DNA from: an uncultured Fodinibius sp.
GTDB taxonomy: Bacteria; Bacteroidota; Rhodothermia; Balneolales; Balneolaceae
Assembly: GCA_913056235.1 (NCBI GenBank)
Contig: CAJXMW010000001.1
Location: forward strand, 248,001 to 312,000
Length of the DNA: 64,000 nt
Direction: 5' to 3'
Shown here: positions 51,135 through 64,000 of the stretch, in pieces
How the letters are laid out: each line of letters begins with the position of its first letter
Numbering within the stretch: the stretch's first letter is position 1
Translations under genes and position numbers: made by a program
The notes under the pieces: model-generated
Databases searched by the model: none
What the model saw: the letters and a program-made list of their open reading frames with translations, nothing else
Told to the model about the DNA's origin: nothing

Positions 51135-52622
51135 CTAGGCCAACGCAAGTCCATTTGAAACGCGATTCACGGCGCGAAGTATTTCTTCAATCTCCATTTC
51201 GCCTTGGTAGCGCTTGCCGTTAATAAATAAGTTTGAGGTTCCCTGCACACCGCTTCGAATCCCAGACCGGCGATCATGCAGTACCCGGTCGCGGCACTCA
51301 TCCGACTCCAGGTCTTGCAAAAACTGCTTTTGGTCAAGACCAATATCTTCAGCATACGTTTTCAGGTGATCATCATCCAGGTTATCCTGATGATCAAATA
51401 GTCGCTTGTGCATTTCCCAGAACTTCCCTTGTCGGCCGGCTGCTTCTGCAGCGATAGCTGCATGCTCGGCGTGCGGGTGGCGACGACTTAGCGGAAGATG
51501 GCGATATACCACGGAAACTTCCGAGTCGAGCTCTCGCAGAACTTCTTCCAATATTCCCTGAATCTTAAAACTGGTAGGACACTCGTAATCTCCATACTGT
51601 AGCAGTGTTACCGACGCATCAGCCGAGCCTTTTCGATGATCGTCGCTGCTGACCGGCGGCATGAGCTCTTCTCCCTCATTGCCATCTTCCATTCGATCGC
51701 CTGAACTCAGCAGATCGGGCACCCCTGAATGGCGGCCGAACCACCACTCCGACCAACGCAGCTCCAGTTTACCGCAATCACGATCAGGAAATCGCACTTG
51801 ACGCGTCTGCGAATAGTTCAGGATAGCTACCAGCAGTACCCCACCCACGGTATTCCCAAGCACGACAGGGATAAAATAGGAGAAAATGAAGGTGCCAAAA
51901 GTAGTCTGTCCCTGAAAGACCAAATATAATACTTCCGAAGATCCTATAATTGAATGAGCTAGATCAGTCACCGCTACGGTATAGATCAGGATGAAGGTGA
52001 TCAACACGCGCGACACCGTATCTCGTGCCGCGTGATTAAGCCAAACCATTCCGGCCACGATCCAGCCGGCAAACCCTCCCTTCCAGAAGAGGGCCATCCA
52101 GTCCGGTGCAAGCGCATGTTTCCCCATCTGCAGGGCCACCTCCGCCGACGCCGGCTCAAGTACCCCAGTGGTAGCCAGTATGTACGAAATGGCTCCCGCA
52201 CCCAGGATGTTGGCTAACAACACGCATCCCCAAACGCGGAGCAAAAGCGGCAGGCTGGCAATACGGGTCATCACTAATGTTACCGGGGTAAGAGTATTTT
52301 CCGTAAAAAGCTGATATCGCCCGATCACAATAAAGATGAACCCCAGCGGATAAAGCATTGCGCCCACCAACCACGCCGCCTCGCTTGGCACCTTGGCCGA
52401 CAAGGCCGCACTTCCCAAAAACGAAAGGCCAATGGAAAAGCCAGCTGCCAGTCCGCTCAAAAACAGCAACCGTGCTGACCGGCTAAACTCCTCATCAGCT
52501 GTTGCAGTAATACGATGAAAAATTTCATCAGTAGAAAACATGTCCCGAATAGCGCGACCGCCGGCCGGAGCTCCACTTTCGGCTTGGTCTATATGGTCGC
52601 GAATAGAAGAATCATTAGCCAT
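51135..52622 (-). CDS. formate/nitrite transporter-family channel fused to a DsbA-like domain
   Basis: The protein has 495 residues. Residues about 30-275 are six hydrophobic helices of the FNT family (YQLFTENTLTPVTL, GNTVGGVLLVAILNY), a channel for small anions such as formate, nitrite or hydrosulfide. A linker (about 275-335) leads to a DsbA-like thioredoxin domain (about 336-495) with YGDYECPTSFKI, PLSRRHPHAEHAAIAAEAAG and GVQGTSNLFING. The CXXC motif is CPTS (only Cys348) and the cis-Pro site reads TS, so redox chemistry may be altered. It starts 9 bp after the trans-sulfuration gene. Confidence 0.85.
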   Translation of the reverse strand: MANDSSIRDHIDQAESGAPAGGRAIRDMFSTDEIFHRITATADEEFSRSARLLFLSGLAAGFSIGLSFLGSAALSAKVPSEAAWLVGAMLYPLGFIFIVIGRYQLFTENTLTPVTLVMTRIASLPLLLRVWGCVLLANILGAGAISYILATTGVLEPASAEVALQMGKHALAPDWMALFWKGGFAGWIVAGMVWLNHAARDTVSRVLITFILIYTVAVTDLAHSIIGSSEVLYLVFQGQTTFGTFIFSYFIPVVLGNTVGGVLLVAILNYSQTRQVRFPDRDCGKLELRWSEWWFGRHSGVPDLLSSGDRMEDGNEGEELMPPVSSDDHRKGSADASVTLLQYGDYECPTSFKIQGILEEVLRELDSEVSVVYRHLPLSRRHPHAEHAAIAAEAAGRQGKFWEMHKRLFDHQDNLDDDHLKTYAEDIGLDQKQFLQDLESDECRDRVLHDRRSGIRSGVQGTSNLFINGKRYQGEMEIEEILRAVNRVSNGLALA

Positions 52623-52631
52623 CTCGTAATA

Positions 52632-53756
52632 TTAATTTAGTGCTCGTTCCATGTCTTCCAACAGATCTTCAGGGTGCTCCAGTCCAACGCTAATGCGGAT
52701 AAGGTTCTGTGGGGTAGTTGAGTCGGGACCTTCGCTGCTGCGGCGATGCTCCCACGTACTTTCTACGCCGCCAAGGCTGGTGGCCCGGCTGATGATCTGG
52801 CTGCCGGCTACAATATTCAACGCCTCGTTCCGACCTCCATCGATAAGAAACGAAATCATGCCACCATAACCATCCATCTGCTTTTTGGCGATTTCGTGTC
52901 CGTTGTGCGATTCCAGACCGGGATAAAAGACCTGATCTATGCGCGGATGATCTTTGAAAAACTCGGCCAGGCGACCGGCATTTTCGTTGTGTCCCCGCAT
53001 GCGATACGGCAACGTTCGGGTGCTCCGCGATACCAGCCAACAGTCTTGCGGAGACGGCACCGCGCCCATCGTAATCTGCAGATTGCGAACCTGTTCCATA
53101 AGGCCGCTTTCATCAGAGTTTGGACCCACTACTGCACCGCCAAGGATATCACTGTGTCCCCCAAAATATTTGGTCGTCGAATGCAGCACCAGATCCGCAT
53201 TCAAGTTCAGCGGCTTCTGGTTCACCGGCGATGGCCAGGTATTATCCACACACGTAATTGCACCGTGTTCATGTGCCAGGTCGCTAACCGCTTTGATATC
53301 CGTAATATTCAGCAGCGGATTGGAAGGCGTTTCAATCCAGATCAGCTTGGTATTTTCCTGAATAGCTTGTTCAACTTCATCCAAGTCTGCCATCGGAATG
53401 AAATCGAACTCCAGTCCCCAGGGAATCATCACCTCGTTGACCAACCGCCCATTACCTGAATACACGTCATCAGGCATCAACACATGATCACCCGGCCGCA
53501 GTGTCTTGAACACGGCCGTTGCCGCAGCTACACCCGACGAAAACGCAGCACAACTCTGACCATCCTCTAAATCAGCAATCAGATGCTCAAGTCGCAGTCG
53601 GTTGGGATTAGCCACCCTCGTGTAGTTTAGATCACCCTCGTGGTGGCCCTCCTTGCTGTGCTCAAATACCGTGGACCGGTGAATCGGGGGCACCACATCG
53701 GGATTGGGATTGGCAACATCTGTTCCGGAATGGATAGCTTTGGTTTCGAAACGCAT
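52632..53756 (-). CDS. PLP-dependent trans-sulfuration enzyme (cystathionine gamma-synthase/lyase type)
   Basis: The protein has 374 residues. It is a Cys/Met-metabolism PLP enzyme: the Schiff-base Lys196 in LHSTTKYFGGHSD, YTRVANPNRLRLE near the start, SSGVAAATAVF (cofactor phosphate loop) and VESTWEHRRSSEGPDSTTP near the end. Such enzymes make or cleave cystathionine, and lyases can release cysteine or H2S; I cannot tell synthase from lyase. It is 9 bp upstream of the FNT-DsbA gene, strongly suggesting one operon. I see no SAM riboswitch upstream. Confidence 0.88.
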   Translation of the reverse strand: MRFETKAIHSGTDVANPNPDVVPPIHRSTVFEHSKEGHHEGDLNYTRVANPNRLRLEHLIADLEDGQSCAAFSSGVAAATAVFKTLRPGDHVLMPDDVYSGNGRLVNEVMIPWGLEFDFIPMADLDEVEQAIQENTKLIWIETPSNPLLNITDIKAVSDLAHEHGAITCVDNTWPSPVNQKPLNLNADLVLHSTTKYFGGHSDILGGAVVGPNSDESGLMEQVRNLQITMGAVPSPQDCWLVSRSTRTLPYRMRGHNENAGRLAEFFKDHPRIDQVFYPGLESHNGHEIAKKQMDGYGGMISFLIDGGRNEALNIVAGSQIISRATSLGGVESTWEHRRSSEGPDSTTPQNLIRISVGLEHPEDLLEDMERALN

Positions 53757-54002: not shown

Positions 54003-54401
54003 TTAACAGCAAGCAGCTTCTGTTTCGCTGCTGTAATTCTCGCTTTCACCGTAGGTGTGGAAAGCCTCCCATTCTACACCCTGCGGATCAGCTACCCAGC
54101 TCTTGTCAGAGTTGGCATAGCAGCAGGTCGTGTCGCCCTCGTTTCGGACAAGTTCCTGCATACGACCGATATTATCGCGTAACTGTTGAAGCTCATCGCT
54201 GGTCTCAGCTTCGATCCCTAGGTGCTCAATTCCTTTTTCTCCATCACGTTCGGCGATAGAGAAATTCACCCGCGGATCATCCAGCATCCACTTAGCGTAG
54301 TCCTCTTTCTGTTTTGTGGGAGCTACACCAAAGAGTGTGCTGTAAAATTCAATAGATTCATTCAGATTGTTCACTTTTAACATAACGTGCATACGTTTCA
54401 T
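54003..54401 (-). CDS. ArsI/CadI-type VOC-fold dioxygenase
   Basis: The protein has 132 residues and is a single VOC domain. Likely metal ligands are His5, His60 and Glu112; the Cys pair TTCCYAN (93-94) is where ArsI binds trivalent organoarsenicals before cleaving the C-As bond. It ends in another Cys pair (EAACC). The segment SWVADPQGVEWEAFHT is typical of the ArsI/CadI family. A SigZ-like sigma factor gene lies upstream on the same strand (247-bp gap). It could also be cadmium-inducible CadI; arsenic is inference from the Cys pair. Confidence 0.85.
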   Translation of the reverse strand: MKRMHVMLKVNNLNESIEFYSTLFGVAPTKQKEDYAKWMLDDPRVNFSIAERDGEKGIEHLGIEAETSDELQQLRDNIGRMQELVRNEGDTTCCYANSDKSWVADPQGVEWEAFHTYGESENYSSETEAACC

Positions 54402-54648: not shown

Positions 54649-55254
54649 CTAACAATCGTCGCAAGACTCATCTTCTTCTTTGATCTTTCGATAGGCTACC
54701 GCACGTCCCTCTTCACCGAATTCCACTTCGCAACAATCTGCCAGTACTTGTCCCAACTTCTGGCGGGCACGCTGGATCCGTGATTTTGCCCCAGACAACG
54801 AAAGGCCCAGATAATCAGCAACCTCCTGCTGTGGTTTGCCTTCCACATCCGCCATTTTGAGCGGCTTCCCATATTTCTTGGGCAGCTCATCGATCATCGG
54901 TATCAGCCATGATAGCACCTCTTCATGCACCCCGTGATCGCCGTCAAACTCATTAAGGTCCAAGATAGCATCTTCATCACCGCCAGTTTTAATCTCGGCA
55001 CCGGCCGGTTCTTCCTTGACTCTTCCTTTCTGCCGGTAGTGGTCAGCCAGCGCCCGACGCGCTATGCCAAACACCCATGACTGCACGCGATCTTCATGAC
55101 GCAGATCGTCAACTCCCTTATGGATACGTATAAAAATGTCCTGCAATATATCCTCCGCTTCCTCATCCGTTGACACTTTTGACCGGATGAATCCACGGAC
55201 CTGATCGCTAAACTGTTGCCAAAGCGCTTTGGTATTTAAAGACTGGGCAGACAT
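54649..55254 (-). CDS. SigZ-like ECF sigma factor with Cys-rich tail
   Basis: The protein has 201 residues. Region 2 is ALWQQFSDQVRGFIRSKVST..EDILQDIFIRIH and region 4 is PQQEVADYLGLSLSGAKSRI, separated by an acidic linker (about 85-110). After region 4 the tail has a vicinal Cys pair (DCCEVEFG, Cys174-175) and ends SCDDC (Cys198 and Cys201), as in SigZ proteins. It should direct RNA polymerase to a small regulon. The tail may bind a thiol-reactive metal or metalloid; this is inference, supported by the neighbouring ArsI-like gene. No anti-sigma gene is adjacent. Confidence 0.85.
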   Translation of the reverse strand: MSAQSLNTKALWQQFSDQVRGFIRSKVSTDEEAEDILQDIFIRIHKGVDDLRHEDRVQSWVFGIARRALADHYRQKGRVKEEPAGAEIKTGGDEDAILDLNEFDGDHGVHEEVLSWLIPMIDELPKKYGKPLKMADVEGKPQQEVADYLGLSLSGAKSRIQRARQKLGQVLADCCEVEFGEEGRAVAYRKIKEEDESCDDC

Positions 55255-59635: not shown

Positions 59636-60562
59636 ATGGCAACTAGAGGCATACATCATATCACTGCAGTAGCGGGTGACCCGAAACAAAATTATGAGTT
59701 TTACACACAGGTTTTGGGACTGCGATCGGTGAAAAAGACGGTAAACTTTGATGATCCATCCGTTTATCACTTGTATTATGGCAACGAACATGGAGATCCC
59801 GGTACTATCCTTACCTTTTTTCCCTGGGAACATCTGCAAGACGGCAAGCCGGATGTCGGACAGGTTGTAGCCATTTCGTTTTCTGTTCCAACGGGTTCCA
59901 AGAATTTTTGGCTAAATCACCTACAAAACCAGAACATAGATATTGAAGCACCTTTTTCTCGTTTTGGCAAAGAAGTAATTGGACTACAAGATCCCAATGG
60001 TCTACATCTGGAAATTGTATTCGATCCCAAGGCCAATACAGTTGATGGATGGGACGGAGGGCCTATCCCCAACGAACATACCATTCGGGGCTTTCATGGT
60101 GCTACCCTAGCCGAAAGAAATTACACAAAAACCGGCCAACTGCTGGAAGAACATCTTGGATTTAATAAAACTAACCAATTAGATAATCGACATCTCTATG
60201 AAACTGAAGCCGATTTTGGATCAGTTATTGAGATAATTGATCAGTTTGACCTCAATGGCCGCGACGGCAAGGGTACCGTCCACCATATTGCTTTTAGGGC
60301 CGAGAATGAAGATGAACAGTTCGATATCTGCCAACAGTTAGAATACAAGGGATACTATTTAACCGAGGTTAAGGATCGGCAATATTTTAAATCAGTATAT
60401 TTTCACGAACCCGGGGGTATTCTGTTTGAAATTGCCACCGATCCTCCCGGGTTTACTACTGATGAGGATCCTGAAGAATTGGGTACAGCCCTGAAATTAC
60501 CACCATGGCTCGAAACTCATCGCCACAATATTGAACGAGAATTGCCAGAACTAACTAGTTAA
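59636..60562 (+). CDS. ring-cleaving dioxygenase, VOC fold (MhqO/MhqE-like)
   Basis: The protein has 308 residues. Two VOC units of about 130 residues each form a ring-opening dioxygenase: GIHHITAVAGDPKQNYEFY at the N-terminus (His7/His8), GLQDPNGLHLEI, then GTVHHIAF in the second unit and ILFEIATDPPG (Glu) near the end. The family cleaves hydroquinone- or catechol-like compounds; the Bacillus Mhq homologues respond to quinone stress. A paralogue follows 15 bp downstream, then an MhqD-like esterase. Confidence 0.85.
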   Translation: MATRGIHHITAVAGDPKQNYEFYTQVLGLRSVKKTVNFDDPSVYHLYYGNEHGDPGTILTFFPWEHLQDGKPDVGQVVAISFSVPTGSKNFWLNHLQNQNIDIEAPFSRFGKEVIGLQDPNGLHLEIVFDPKANTVDGWDGGPIPNEHTIRGFHGATLAERNYTKTGQLLEEHLGFNKTNQLDNRHLYETEADFGSVIEIIDQFDLNGRDGKGTVHHIAFRAENEDEQFDICQQLEYKGYYLTEVKDRQYFKSVYFHEPGGILFEIATDPPGFTTDEDPEELGTALKLPPWLETHRHNIERELPELTS

Positions 60563-60577
60563 TTAACTATTTGTACT

Positions 60578-61510
60578 ATGTCTGAACATCGAGGGTTACA
60601 TCATATTTCTGTCATTGCCAGCGATCCACAAGATAATTATGACTTTTACGTCAAAAAGCTGGGCATGCGCATGGTCAAGAAAACGGTCAACCAAGACGAT
60701 CCCACCAAATACCATCTGTTTTATGCCAACTCAGAGGGAAGTCCCGGTTCAAGCTTGACTTTCTTTCCATGGCCACGTGCCCATCAAGGCACTTCCGGGA
60801 CAGGAGAAGCAACGGCTATATCACTGGCCGTACCAGAGAACTCATTGGAATACTGGGAAAATCGGCTGGCTAAACAAAATATTCGCTACACCGGTCCCAA
60901 AGAACGCTTTGAGAAACAGTATCTCTCCTTTAAGGACCCCGATGGTTTGCAACTGCATTTGGTATTTGATAACCGAAAAGATGACCTCAAGGAGTGGACC
61001 AAGTCACCGGTACCCATGGAGCACCAGATCCAGGGATTCTGGAGTACCAAGCTGAGGCTGCACGAAGTGGATCATACCGAAAAAATCCTGACTTCTATCC
61101 TTGGTTTCACAAAAGTCGATAGCGAAGGCAACCAAACTCTTTATCAAACCGACAGCGAATTGGGCCACTCCCTGATTATTGAAGAGGCCCCTTTTGAGCA
61201 GGGACAAAACGGCGCCGGTATAGTTCACCATGTAGCTTTCCAAACTAAAGATGACGACGACCTCAAAGAACTTCGCCACGAAGTATTGCGGCTCGGGCTG
61301 AAACCTACCGAAATTATCGACCGGCACTTCTTTAAGTCGGTATATTATCGTACGCCCGGTGGGGTACTGTTTGAAATGGCTACGCACGGGCCAGGTTATT
61401 TTGTTAACTCTGATCCGTCCGAGGATCAGGCTGAAAAGCTGGAGCTCACACCCTGGCACGAATCCAAGCGCGAGCAAATTGAAGCCGCATTGCCTACTAT
61501 TAATATTTAA
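60578..61510 (+). CDS. ring-cleaving dioxygenase, VOC fold (second copy)
   Basis: The protein has 310 residues, parallel along its full length to the preceding protein: GLHHISVIASDPQDNYDFY, FKDPDGLQLHLVF, GIVHHVAF and VLFEMATHGPGY. The divergence between the two is substantial, so this is an old duplication with probable change of substrate preference. The 15-bp gap indicates co-transcription. Intact metal-binding His and Glu motifs suggest both are active. Confidence 0.85.
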   Translation: MSEHRGLHHISVIASDPQDNYDFYVKKLGMRMVKKTVNQDDPTKYHLFYANSEGSPGSSLTFFPWPRAHQGTSGTGEATAISLAVPENSLEYWENRLAKQNIRYTGPKERFEKQYLSFKDPDGLQLHLVFDNRKDDLKEWTKSPVPMEHQIQGFWSTKLRLHEVDHTEKILTSILGFTKVDSEGNQTLYQTDSELGHSLIIEEAPFEQGQNGAGIVHHVAFQTKDDDDLKELRHEVLRLGLKPTEIIDRHFFKSVYYRTPGGVLFEMATHGPGYFVNSDPSEDQAEKLELTPWHESKREQIEAALPTINI

Positions 61511-61652
61511 GAAAGATAACTAAAACCCCTCAATCCTCCTGTCCTACTGCTCCAAGCAAGAACACTTGATAAAATCCGAGCCAGCATAAAAGTCCCTCTT
61601 AGAAAGAGAGATTTAGGCAGGTTGACACAATCAAATTTAAAACAATACACAA

Positions 61653-62321
61653 ATGTCGCTATTCCGTATCGATCCGGACAAACCATTTAAAGGACCCCAC
61701 CAAGATCAAAACTTTGCCACAACCGGTGCAGATCTCAATGATGCTGAGATGGCAATGATCCTCATCCATGGCCGGGGCGCCTCAGCACAGAGCATGCTCA
61801 TGTTTGCCGATGAATTTTCGGGAAATAGCATCCACTACAGGGCACTGCAAGCCAGTGGACATACATGGTACCCACGCTCCTTTATGGCACCGAAAGAGAT
61901 GAATGAACCAGGAATTTCCAGCGGATTACAGGCGATTTACGATCAGATTGTAACCATCGAAGAGGCGGGAATCCCCAAAGAAAACATTATGCTGCTGGGT
62001 TTCTCACAAGGTGCCTGTCTCACCACGGAATACGCGGCCCGACATCCCGGGCGGTTTGGTGCAATTGTGGGATTCAGCGGTGGACTCATTGGCCAGCACG
62101 TAGATCCAAAAAATTACAGCGGGTCGATGGAGCAAACGCCCGTTTTCCTGGGATGCAGCGACCGCGATCCGCACATCCCAAAGGAACGCGTGGATGAAAC
62201 TGAACAGGTCTTTCAGCAGCTCAATGCTGATGTCACCAAACGTATTTACGAAGGTATGGGGCATACAGTCAATAAAGATGAGATTGAGTTTGTGGATGGG
62301 CTGATCAGCAAAATCCGGTAA
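61653..62321 (+). CDS. MhqD-like phospholipase/carboxylesterase
   Basis: The protein has 222 residues and is a short alpha/beta hydrolase: LIHGRGASAQS (oxyanion), GFSQGACLT (Ser elbow), GCSDRDPHIP (Asp) and GMGHTVNKDE (His). The Bacillus MhqD esterase is encoded with ring-cleaving dioxygenases, just as here. A 140-bp gap with a weak repeat-like sequence (61590-61625) separates it from the dioxygenases, so it may have its own promoter. The substrate is unknown. Confidence 0.82.
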   Translation: MSLFRIDPDKPFKGPHQDQNFATTGADLNDAEMAMILIHGRGASAQSMLMFADEFSGNSIHYRALQASGHTWYPRSFMAPKEMNEPGISSGLQAIYDQIVTIEEAGIPKENIMLLGFSQGACLTTEYAARHPGRFGAIVGFSGGLIGQHVDPKNYSGSMEQTPVFLGCSDRDPHIPKERVDETEQVFQQLNADVTKRIYEGMGHTVNKDEIEFVDGLISKIR

Positions 62322-62543
62322 CTTAATTTATAGTAGATTTGCTCTATTTTGATACTCCTCGTTACTTTCATTCCTCGAACTGACTATTTGAAAGGTATTT
62401 TCACCTGCAGCTCCATAGTTACTCTTATCCCGTGAACCACTGGGAGTCTTAAATACCTTACTTGAAATATATCTCACCCAGAGACTGTTTTTTATTCCGC
62501 CAAGCTGTAGATTACGTATTCCGCAATAACGAATCTATTTGTC

Positions 62544-64000
62544 ATGGATGTTTTATGGGTCGGTGTGGCCTTTCTTTTTGGGATACTTGTTTCTCGTATC
62601 AAGCTGCCGCCACTGGTTGGTTACCTGGCAGCCGGGGCCGCACTATCGGCTTACGGCTACGAGGCGGGAGCGGCCCTGCACGAAATTGCTCACTTAGGCG
62701 TCCTTTTTTTACTGTTTACGGTGGGGCTGCACCTTCGGCTGAAAAATATCATACGTATCGAAGTTATTGGCACCGGCGGCATCCATCTGCTCATTAGTAC
62801 ACTGATTTTTCTCCCGATTACTATTATACTGGGATATTCCCTCGGTGCCTCACTCATAATAAGTATTGTTCTTAGTTTTTCGAGCACAGTACTTACAGCC
62901 AAGAGCCTGGAGCGACGCAGTGAGCTGGGGGCCTTCCATGGCCGCGTGGCGATTGGAATTTTAATCCTGCAAGATATCGTGGCTATTGCCCTGCTGGGAC
63001 TTACCAGCGGCGCGTCCCCTTCTCCGTGGAGCCTCGCTCTACTGGGATTACCTCTGATTCGACCGGCTATTATAAAAATTGTTGAGCTCAGTGAGGAAGA
63101 AGAACTCAAGCTGCTTTTTGCGCTCATGCTGGCACTGGGAGGCGGAGCACTTTTTGAGGGCGTTGGGTTATCTTCTGAACTTGGTGCGTTGATTTCCGGC
63201 ATGCTACTTTCGGGTCACCCCGTTGCCGATGATCTATCTAAAAAACTCTGGGGACTCAAAGAGGCCTTTCTGGTTGGCTTTTTCCTGGAAGTAGGATTAA
63301 CAGGTTTGCCGACGTTACAGGATTTTTATCTGGTCTTGGCAGCTCTTGCCATCCTTCCGCTAAAGTCCGTGCTATTTTTTGGACTTATGCTTCTGTTCAA
63401 ACTACGAGCGCGTACTTCCTTCATAGCAACCATATCACTGACTTCCTACAGCGAATTTACTTTGATCGCCGGCACTGTAGCCGCTTCGGCCGGCTTCATA
63501 CCACCCGGTGTGGTTATCGCTTTTGCCCTTTTGACAGCAATTTCATTTGCTCTCAACGCTCCACTGGCAATCTGGGAAGAGCAGCTTTGGAAACGAATAG
63601 AGATGGCACTCAGCAAATTTGAACGAAATGTTCCACACCCGGACCAGCAAATTATCTCACTGGGCTCAGCTGAATACCTGGTTGTTGGAATGGGCAATGC
63701 CGGACAAGCAGCGTATGATCATCTCAAGAGCCAAGAAAAATATGTCGCAGGCATGGATATCGACCCAGCACGCATTGAGCGAAACCTACAAGAGGGACGC
63801 CGCGTCATTTACGGCGACATGCAGGATGTTGAACTCTGGGATAACCTGGATCTAAGCCACCTGCGATCGGTGATTCTTGCAATTGGAACCCCAGAATCAA
63901 AAGTAAATGCCACAAAATATCTCCGCTCTAATAAATACGAGGGGTCCATTTTGGCCCTTACCATGCAAGAGGATGAGCAAATTGCCCTTAGCAGAGCCGG
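62544..64000 (+). CDS. cation:proton antiporter, KefB/CPA2 type (partial, runs off the window)
   Basis: Open from ATG 62544 to the window end, 485 codons seen. It has about 12 hydrophobic helices, with LPPLVGYLAAGAALSAYGY near the start, SFSSTVLTAKSLERR, LILQDIVAIALL (the Asp of the ion path) and GLSSELGALISGMLLSGHP. It then enters a Rossmann-like TrkA-N domain, VVGMGNAGQAAYDHL. KefB/KefC proteins release K+ in exchange for H+ during electrophile stress. Following the dioxygenase and esterase genes, I infer a link to electrophile resistance. Confidence 0.85.
   Translation, partial: MDVLWVGVAFLFGILVSRIKLPPLVGYLAAGAALSAYGYEAGAALHEIAHLGVLFLLFTVGLHLRLKNIIRIEVIGTGGIHLLISTLIFLPITIILGYSLGASLIISIVLSFSSTVLTAKSLERRSELGAFHGRVAIGILILQDIVAIALLGLTSGASPSPWSLALLGLPLIRPAIIKIVELSEEEELKLLFALMLALGGGALFEGVGLSSELGALISGMLLSGHPVADDLSKKLWGLKEAFLVGFFLEVGLTGLPTLQDFYLVLAALAILPLKSVLFFGLMLLFKLRARTSFIATISLTSYSEFTLIAGTVAASAGFIPPGVVIAFALLTAISFALNAPLAIWEEQLWKRIEMALSKFERNVPHPDQQIISLGSAEYLVVGMGNAGQAAYDHLKSQEKYVAGMDIDPARIERNLQEGRRVIYGDMQDVELWDNLDLSHLRSVILAIGTPESKVNATKYLRSNKYEGSILALTMQEDEQIALSRA

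Follow-up and report, generated by a model that had tools for sequence, protein, structure and literature searches.

What a thioredoxin-fold domain might do when it is attached to a membrane channel is the question raised by one gene in the 64,000-nucleotide stretch of DNA analysed here (the window). The gene (51135..52622, minus strand) encodes a protein of 495 aa, P0001, in which a channel of the FNT family is followed by a DsbA-like domain. Its frame runs from an ATG at 52622 to a TAG at 51135 with no internal stop codon, in agreement with the uninterrupted frame, free of a stop between the halves, that the first-pass annotation had described. The channel domain (residues 33-270; 51813..52526, minus strand) matches the Pfam profile Form_Nir_trans (PF01226) over positions 1-239 of 240 with 179.9 bits against a cut-off of 34.6 (E 6.9e-53), which makes the protein a member of the FNT family. 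It is followed by a linker (residues 276-325; 51648..51797, minus strand) that should lie in the cytosol and by the DsbA-like domain (residues 327-486; 51165..51644, minus strand), which matches Thioredoxin_4 (PF13462; E 1.5e-15) with 58.2 bits against a Pfam cut-off of 23.2 and is overlapped by the Pfam family DSBA at residues 342-484 (E 1.2e-14). The fusion also scores 70.4 bits with NF041057, the Rcas_1661 family, below the equivalog cut-off of 190 bits, and is thus related to that family without being a member of it. An AlphaFold2 model from a 97-row alignment has a mean pLDDT of 89.1, mostly above 90 in both halves and under 50 at residues 302-316, the flexible part of the linker. In this monomer model, residues 29-275 have the aquaporin-like fold of the family, with LciA (Z 32.7) and FocA (Z 32.4) as structural matches, and residues 315-492 match the thioredoxin-like structure 3gyk (Z 21.9) and BdbD (Z 21.7), so that profile and model together assign the C-terminal half to the Thioredoxin_4/DsbA-like fold. 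The domain limits proposed earlier, 30-275 and 336-495, are close to those of the model.

That an FNT channel and a DsbA-like domain occur in one protein as a real architecture is near certain. With the window gene included, ten genes from several genera of halophilic bacteria carry the fusion in the same order and in a single frame. It is present in four relatives in the family of the window organism, one of the four being Aliifodinibius salipaludis and three sharing the genus of the window organism, and in four members of a second family within the class; in Salinibacter ruber M1 it lies on the complete plasmid pSR116, under the record name 'formate/nitrite transporter family protein'. A comparison of the three closest relatives gives dN/dS values of 0.06-0.11 in the DsbA half and 0.03-0.05 in the FNT half, which indicates that the DsbA half is constrained by purifying selection and is not decaying. 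A merged gene model, named in the first-pass annotation as the result that would overturn its reading, is excluded by the nine further genes. The joining of two genes by a sequencing or assembly error is refuted by the same ten independent frames, by the copy on a complete plasmid and by the purifying selection; no point in its favour was found, and the probability left to it is negligible.

Both folds were already known, and their fusion appears to be new. In the literature searched, which lay mostly outside the subscription journals, we found no description of FNT-DsbA fusions in either order or of NhaA-DsbA fusions, in line with the earlier statement that no FNT-DsbA protein has been characterised, and a survey of 2206 FNT sequences (PMC5525234) makes no mention of thioredoxin, DsbA or fusion. 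In the window genome the fusion is the sole FNT gene. Elsewhere, several closely related FNTs of the same clade are without the DsbA-like module, which implies that the channel works without it. The conserved C-terminal tails of such DsbA-less relatives (L203-L208, L210, L138) contain LDQPV or a similar sequence (LDxPV) that resembles the start of the module and is possibly the remnant of a lost domain.

The channel half retains the residues expected of an FNT pore. The equivalents of FocA H209, Thr91 and Asn262 are His223 (51954..51956, minus strand), T107 and N257, each at least 95% conserved among 50 FNT rows. At the YfdC-specific FocA positions 79, 86, 92, 172, 202, 208 and 254 the fusion has F95, R102, E108, G186, V216, A222 and Y249, and N109 also fits the YfdC pore signature (PMC5525234, Table 4). 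These residues, mapped by hand from local alignments against that table, through which alone YfdC is known here, mark the channel as a probable YfdC-type FNT. The fusion hence shares its pore signature with the YfdC-alpha/beta channels (E. coli YfdC type), a group of subfamilies with no function assigned (PMC5525234), whereas the C-terminal thioredoxin-fold domain is the fusion's own. With FocA, the channel associated with PflB, and with Chlamydomonas LciA it has the fold in common, at the Z values given above, but only about 20-22% identity. Formate flux through FocA is controlled from the cytosolic side, where the N-terminal region governs it (PMC12559229), but there the regulator is either a separate enzyme or the helix at the N terminus, and no redox domain is fused to the channel.

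In the DsbA-like half, the usual CXXC is replaced by CPTS (Cys348-Ser351; 51570..51581, minus strand), in which the first cysteine is kept and a serine stands for the resolving one, and the cis-proline position is taken by Ser463 in GVQGT-S-N (Thr462-Ser463-Asn464; 51231..51239, minus strand). Both replacements had been read correctly in the first pass, and both extend to the bacterial fusions as a whole: C-x-T-S is found in 10/10, and so is the loss of cis-Pro, in favour of Ser, Asn, Lys or Ala with Asn next to it. The pattern was already set when three of the ten came to light, and all three fit it. The domain thus has neither the CxxC dithiol nor the cis-Pro loop of a DsbA thiol oxidase. 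The N and C termini of FNT and NhaA proteins are cytosolic, as established from the structures of FocA and NhaA, and because of this the DsbA-like domain should also be cytosolic and not a periplasmic oxidase, which makes the name 'DsbA' misleading; by analogy with the known FNT structures, the FNT half should form a pentamer. Periplasmic DsbA, BdbD and ScsC share their fold with the window domain (Z 18-22), but they differ from it in CxxC, in cis-Pro and probably in location. A further cysteine, Cys283 (51774..51776, minus strand), lies next to the membrane after TM6, in the motif RDCG, in all ten fusions; DsbA-less FNT relatives have it too, which weakens the case for Cys283 as a fusion-specific partner.

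The same module is found on, or next to, other proteins. The first-pass annotation had compared the domain with one fused to NhaA, and NhaA does carry the same Thioredoxin_4 module, in both orders: DsbA-NhaA in Chloroflexota and NhaA-DsbA in Actinomycetota (L016, L030 and L022, L028, L031, L032, L037, L049, L061). These fusions resemble the window protein in joining the module to a transporter with cytosolic termini; NhaA, however, is an unrelated antiporter, and in its modules CxxC and cis-Pro are intact. Three genomes of one family have the module joined to a DAC (diadenylate-cyclase) domain (L156:1982-3157, with CxxC seen; L215:1313-2491; L216:1975-3135), possibly for redox control of c-di-AMP synthesis. 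As a free protein, the dithiol module occurs in many phyla, and in 34 loci an AhpC/TSA peroxiredoxin gene lies within about 150 bp of it or overlaps it on the same strand. Free monothiol modules (CPYS/CPFS) in the family of the window organism adjoin a Kef-type antiporter (PF00999 + TrkA_N) in 10/10 loci, mostly overlapping it or a few bases apart, and a peroxiredoxin in 0/10. Five of these loci, read at length (L184:3864-11145, L185, L186, L187, L189), contain an operon of glyoxalase/dioxygenase, MhqD-like esterase, Kef and monothiol module; most also include a UBP zinc finger, and in most there is a response regulator alongside a cNMP-type sensor kinase. This operon of dioxygenase, MhqD, Kef and CPYS module is apparently an undescribed redox-regulated Kef system; dioxygenase together with MhqD is a signature of quinone and electrophile defence in Staphylococcus and Bacillus (PMC6798810). 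In a relative from the same genus (L188) the genes are dioxygenase, MhqD, FMN reductase and module, with Kef absent; in Ktedonobacter they are UBP, module, dioxygenase and MhqD. These arrangements suggest a role in stress for the free module, as partner of peroxiredoxin in its dithiol form and of Kef or a quinone-detoxification operon in its monothiol form. One relative (G031) carries both the FNT-DsbA fusion and a Kef-linked module, and the two can therefore coexist.

The window has a Kef operon of its own, 7 kb from the fusion (59636..64000, on to about 64115, plus strand; L195), with two glyoxalase/dioxygenase-type genes, an MhqD-like esterase and a Kef-type CPA2 antiporter, and a divergent MarR gene after it. 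The monothiol module and the UBP zinc finger are absent from this operon, whereas relatives carry the module, and most of them also UBP, after Kef. In the window genome the module has a single clear copy, that of the channel fusion; two weak matches elsewhere (28-31% identity) look like ordinary DsbA-type proteins. Nine base pairs upstream of the fusion, on the same strand, lies a gene for a PLP enzyme of Cys/Met metabolism (cystathionine gamma-synthase/lyase type; 52632..53756, minus strand; PF01053, E 3.5e-120), and the two genes are probably co-transcribed. No Cys/Met PLP gene was found beside the other fusions, no neighbour is conserved among the bacterial fusion genes in the flanks compared, and no peroxiredoxin adjoins them in the loci tested. 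Since the flanks differ among fusions, the adjacent Cys/Met enzyme is weak evidence on function, and the link to stress comes instead from the relatives of one domain. Between the Cys/Met enzyme and an M48 peptidase are a small glyoxalase-fold gene with a CC motif (54003-54401), ArsI-like by eye and matched in Pfam by Glyoxalase only, and a sigma-factor-like gene (54649-55254).

The reverse order, DsbA-FNT, occurs in about 20 archaeal genes, from haloarchaea (Natrialba, Haladaptatus, Halostagnicola, Halocatena and others) and one Thermoplasmatales MAG; some of these genes are on large plasmids. The proteins start with the module and have no evident signal peptide, and their CxxC and cis-Pro are mostly intact, so a monothiol switch is not general to the architecture. 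A peroxiredoxin adjoins the archaeal fusions in four loci, and formamidases in one. On the plasmid of Halocatena salina (L212:449-7628) the genes are formamidase, AmiS/UreI transporter, formamidase, DsbA-FNT and peroxiredoxin; the formamidases are a hint that the substrate is formate, and as they stand beside one archaeal fusion only, formate was rejected as a general substrate. In Natrialba aegyptia (L157:2748-5429) a peroxiredoxin, a free module with overlapping start and DsbA-FNT follow in one run. Archaeal copies broken by a stop codon or frame change are present in Haladaptatus halobius (L160) and, as one of two copies, in N. aegyptia (L004:5761-7578). A separate haloarchaeal branch (L152-L155), apparently common across the order, has two C-terminal universal-stress-protein domains on FNT in proteins of about 600-640 aa. 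Taken together, the DsbA-like and universal-stress fusions indicate that this FNT branch has repeatedly gained cytosolic stress-type domains, and the pairing of channel and DsbA-like domain in both orders suggests that the channel is under oxidative or chemical stress control inside the cell.

In trees of the DsbA halves, the bacterial fusions form one group (100/99) and the archaeal fusions another (93/87), the bacterial halves standing next to the Kef-operon modules (98/93; support 73 without the active-site columns), and a joining of the bacterial and archaeal DsbA halves is not rejected (p 0.44 and 0.69). For the FNT halves, a single group of bacterial fusions is rejected (p 0.0006 and 0.003); they interleave with archaeal ones, and the window half falls in a group with one archaeal set and the fusions of Salinibacter type (99/97). 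Such interleaving calls for gene transfer between halophiles together with the swapping of halves, or for repeated loss.

To account for the fusion, we propose that a YfdC-type FNT carries a cytosolic monothiol domain that senses oxidants or electrophiles and gates a proton-coupled flux of weak acid, a reading to which we give a probability of about 0.4; a role of the domain as monothiol sensor or gate is favoured by genomic context. The FNT half would assemble into a pentamer, as is usual for FNT channels, and transport a small anion of a weak acid together with a proton, as expected from what is known of the family and from the YfdC signature residues (PMC5525234), and formate, given the hint from the Halocatena formamidases, would be the best single guess for the anion. 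The DsbA-like half would hang by its flexible linker at the cytosolic mouth of the channel. With one reactive cysteine and no resolving cysteine, it would have no normal disulfide-exchange cycle; Cys348 may be modified by an oxidant, an electrophile or a low-molecular-weight thiol, or may form a mixed disulfide, for which Cys283 is a candidate partner, and the flux would change with this modification. Protection under stress would be the likely purpose, in that weak acid and H+ let in, or their loss stopped, would shift cytosolic pH, as Kef does against electrophiles. Such gating is reasonable in view of two precedents: the full activity of Kef depends on ancillary oxidoreductases in the cytosol, and acidification of the cytosol by weak acid protects as Kef does (PMC10224563), and FocA is controlled as described above (PMC12559229). 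In Kef with KefF or KefG, too, electrophile defence pairs a proton-coupled transporter with a cytosolic redox protein encoded alongside it. KefF and KefG, however, are proteins of quinone-reductase type and not of thioredoxin fold, whereas the window domain belongs to Thioredoxin_4 and is covalently fused to a different transporter; the working principle may nonetheless be shared.

Other roles can be proposed for the domain. The channel could be mainly a membrane anchor for a monothiol redox enzyme, glutaredoxin-like and working with a low-molecular-weight thiol, which does not gate the pore and works for a peroxiredoxin or in the repair of oxidised proteins of the membrane or cytosol. Monothiol thioredoxin-fold enzymes do exist, and the peroxiredoxins beside the 34 free dithiol modules and the four archaeal fusions fit this account. 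We consider it unlikely, because the conserved pore residues speak for more than an anchor, because cis-Pro, which helps to bind substrates, is lost throughout the bacterial fusions, and because the peroxiredoxin is missing beside them in the loci tested. The loss of cis-Pro and of the resolving cysteine is also what one would see if the domain were redox-inactive in bacteria and served for docking or assembly, either of the pentamer or of a cytosolic partner enzyme, much as PflB binds FocA at its cytosolic face (PMC12559229), and evolution is indeed about twofold faster in the DsbA half than in the FNT half. The strict retention of Cys348 in all ten fusions, unexpected in a redox-dead domain, and the place of the free monothiol relatives in electrophile-detoxification operons make this, too, a rather improbable explanation.

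A link to sulfur metabolism would have the channel export hydrosulfide or another sulfur anion released by the adjacent PLP enzyme, with Cys348 handling persulfide. It draws on the closeness of that gene, on the resemblance of the model to HSC structures (Z about 32) and on the fact that HSC members of FNT carry hydrosulfide (PMC5525234). We regard it as very improbable, since the PLP neighbour is particular to the window among the fusions and the pore signature is like that of YfdC and not that of HSC, with Gly at N172 and Glu at S92.

FNT, NhaA and Kef are all proton-coupled, and one sensor on all three would therefore serve the control of cytosolic pH under thiol stress. More tentatively than the gating of the window channel, we suggest that the module is a portable cytosolic thiol sensor recruited by unrelated proton-coupled transporters (FNT, NhaA and Kef-type CPA2), fused at either end or linked in an operon, so that cytosolic pH in bacteria and archaea would be under redox- or electrophile-gated control, with the window protein as the channel version of the module; this is a doubtful but conceivable generalisation. 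FNT channels are important and druggable, and a redox domain fused to them in both orders, in bacteria and in archaea, makes the function of the large YfdC branch directly testable. If the gating holds, thiol stress would be coupled to the flux of anions and protons in a previously undescribed way that parallels Kef, and one module would link NhaA, the Kef-type antiporters and FNT.
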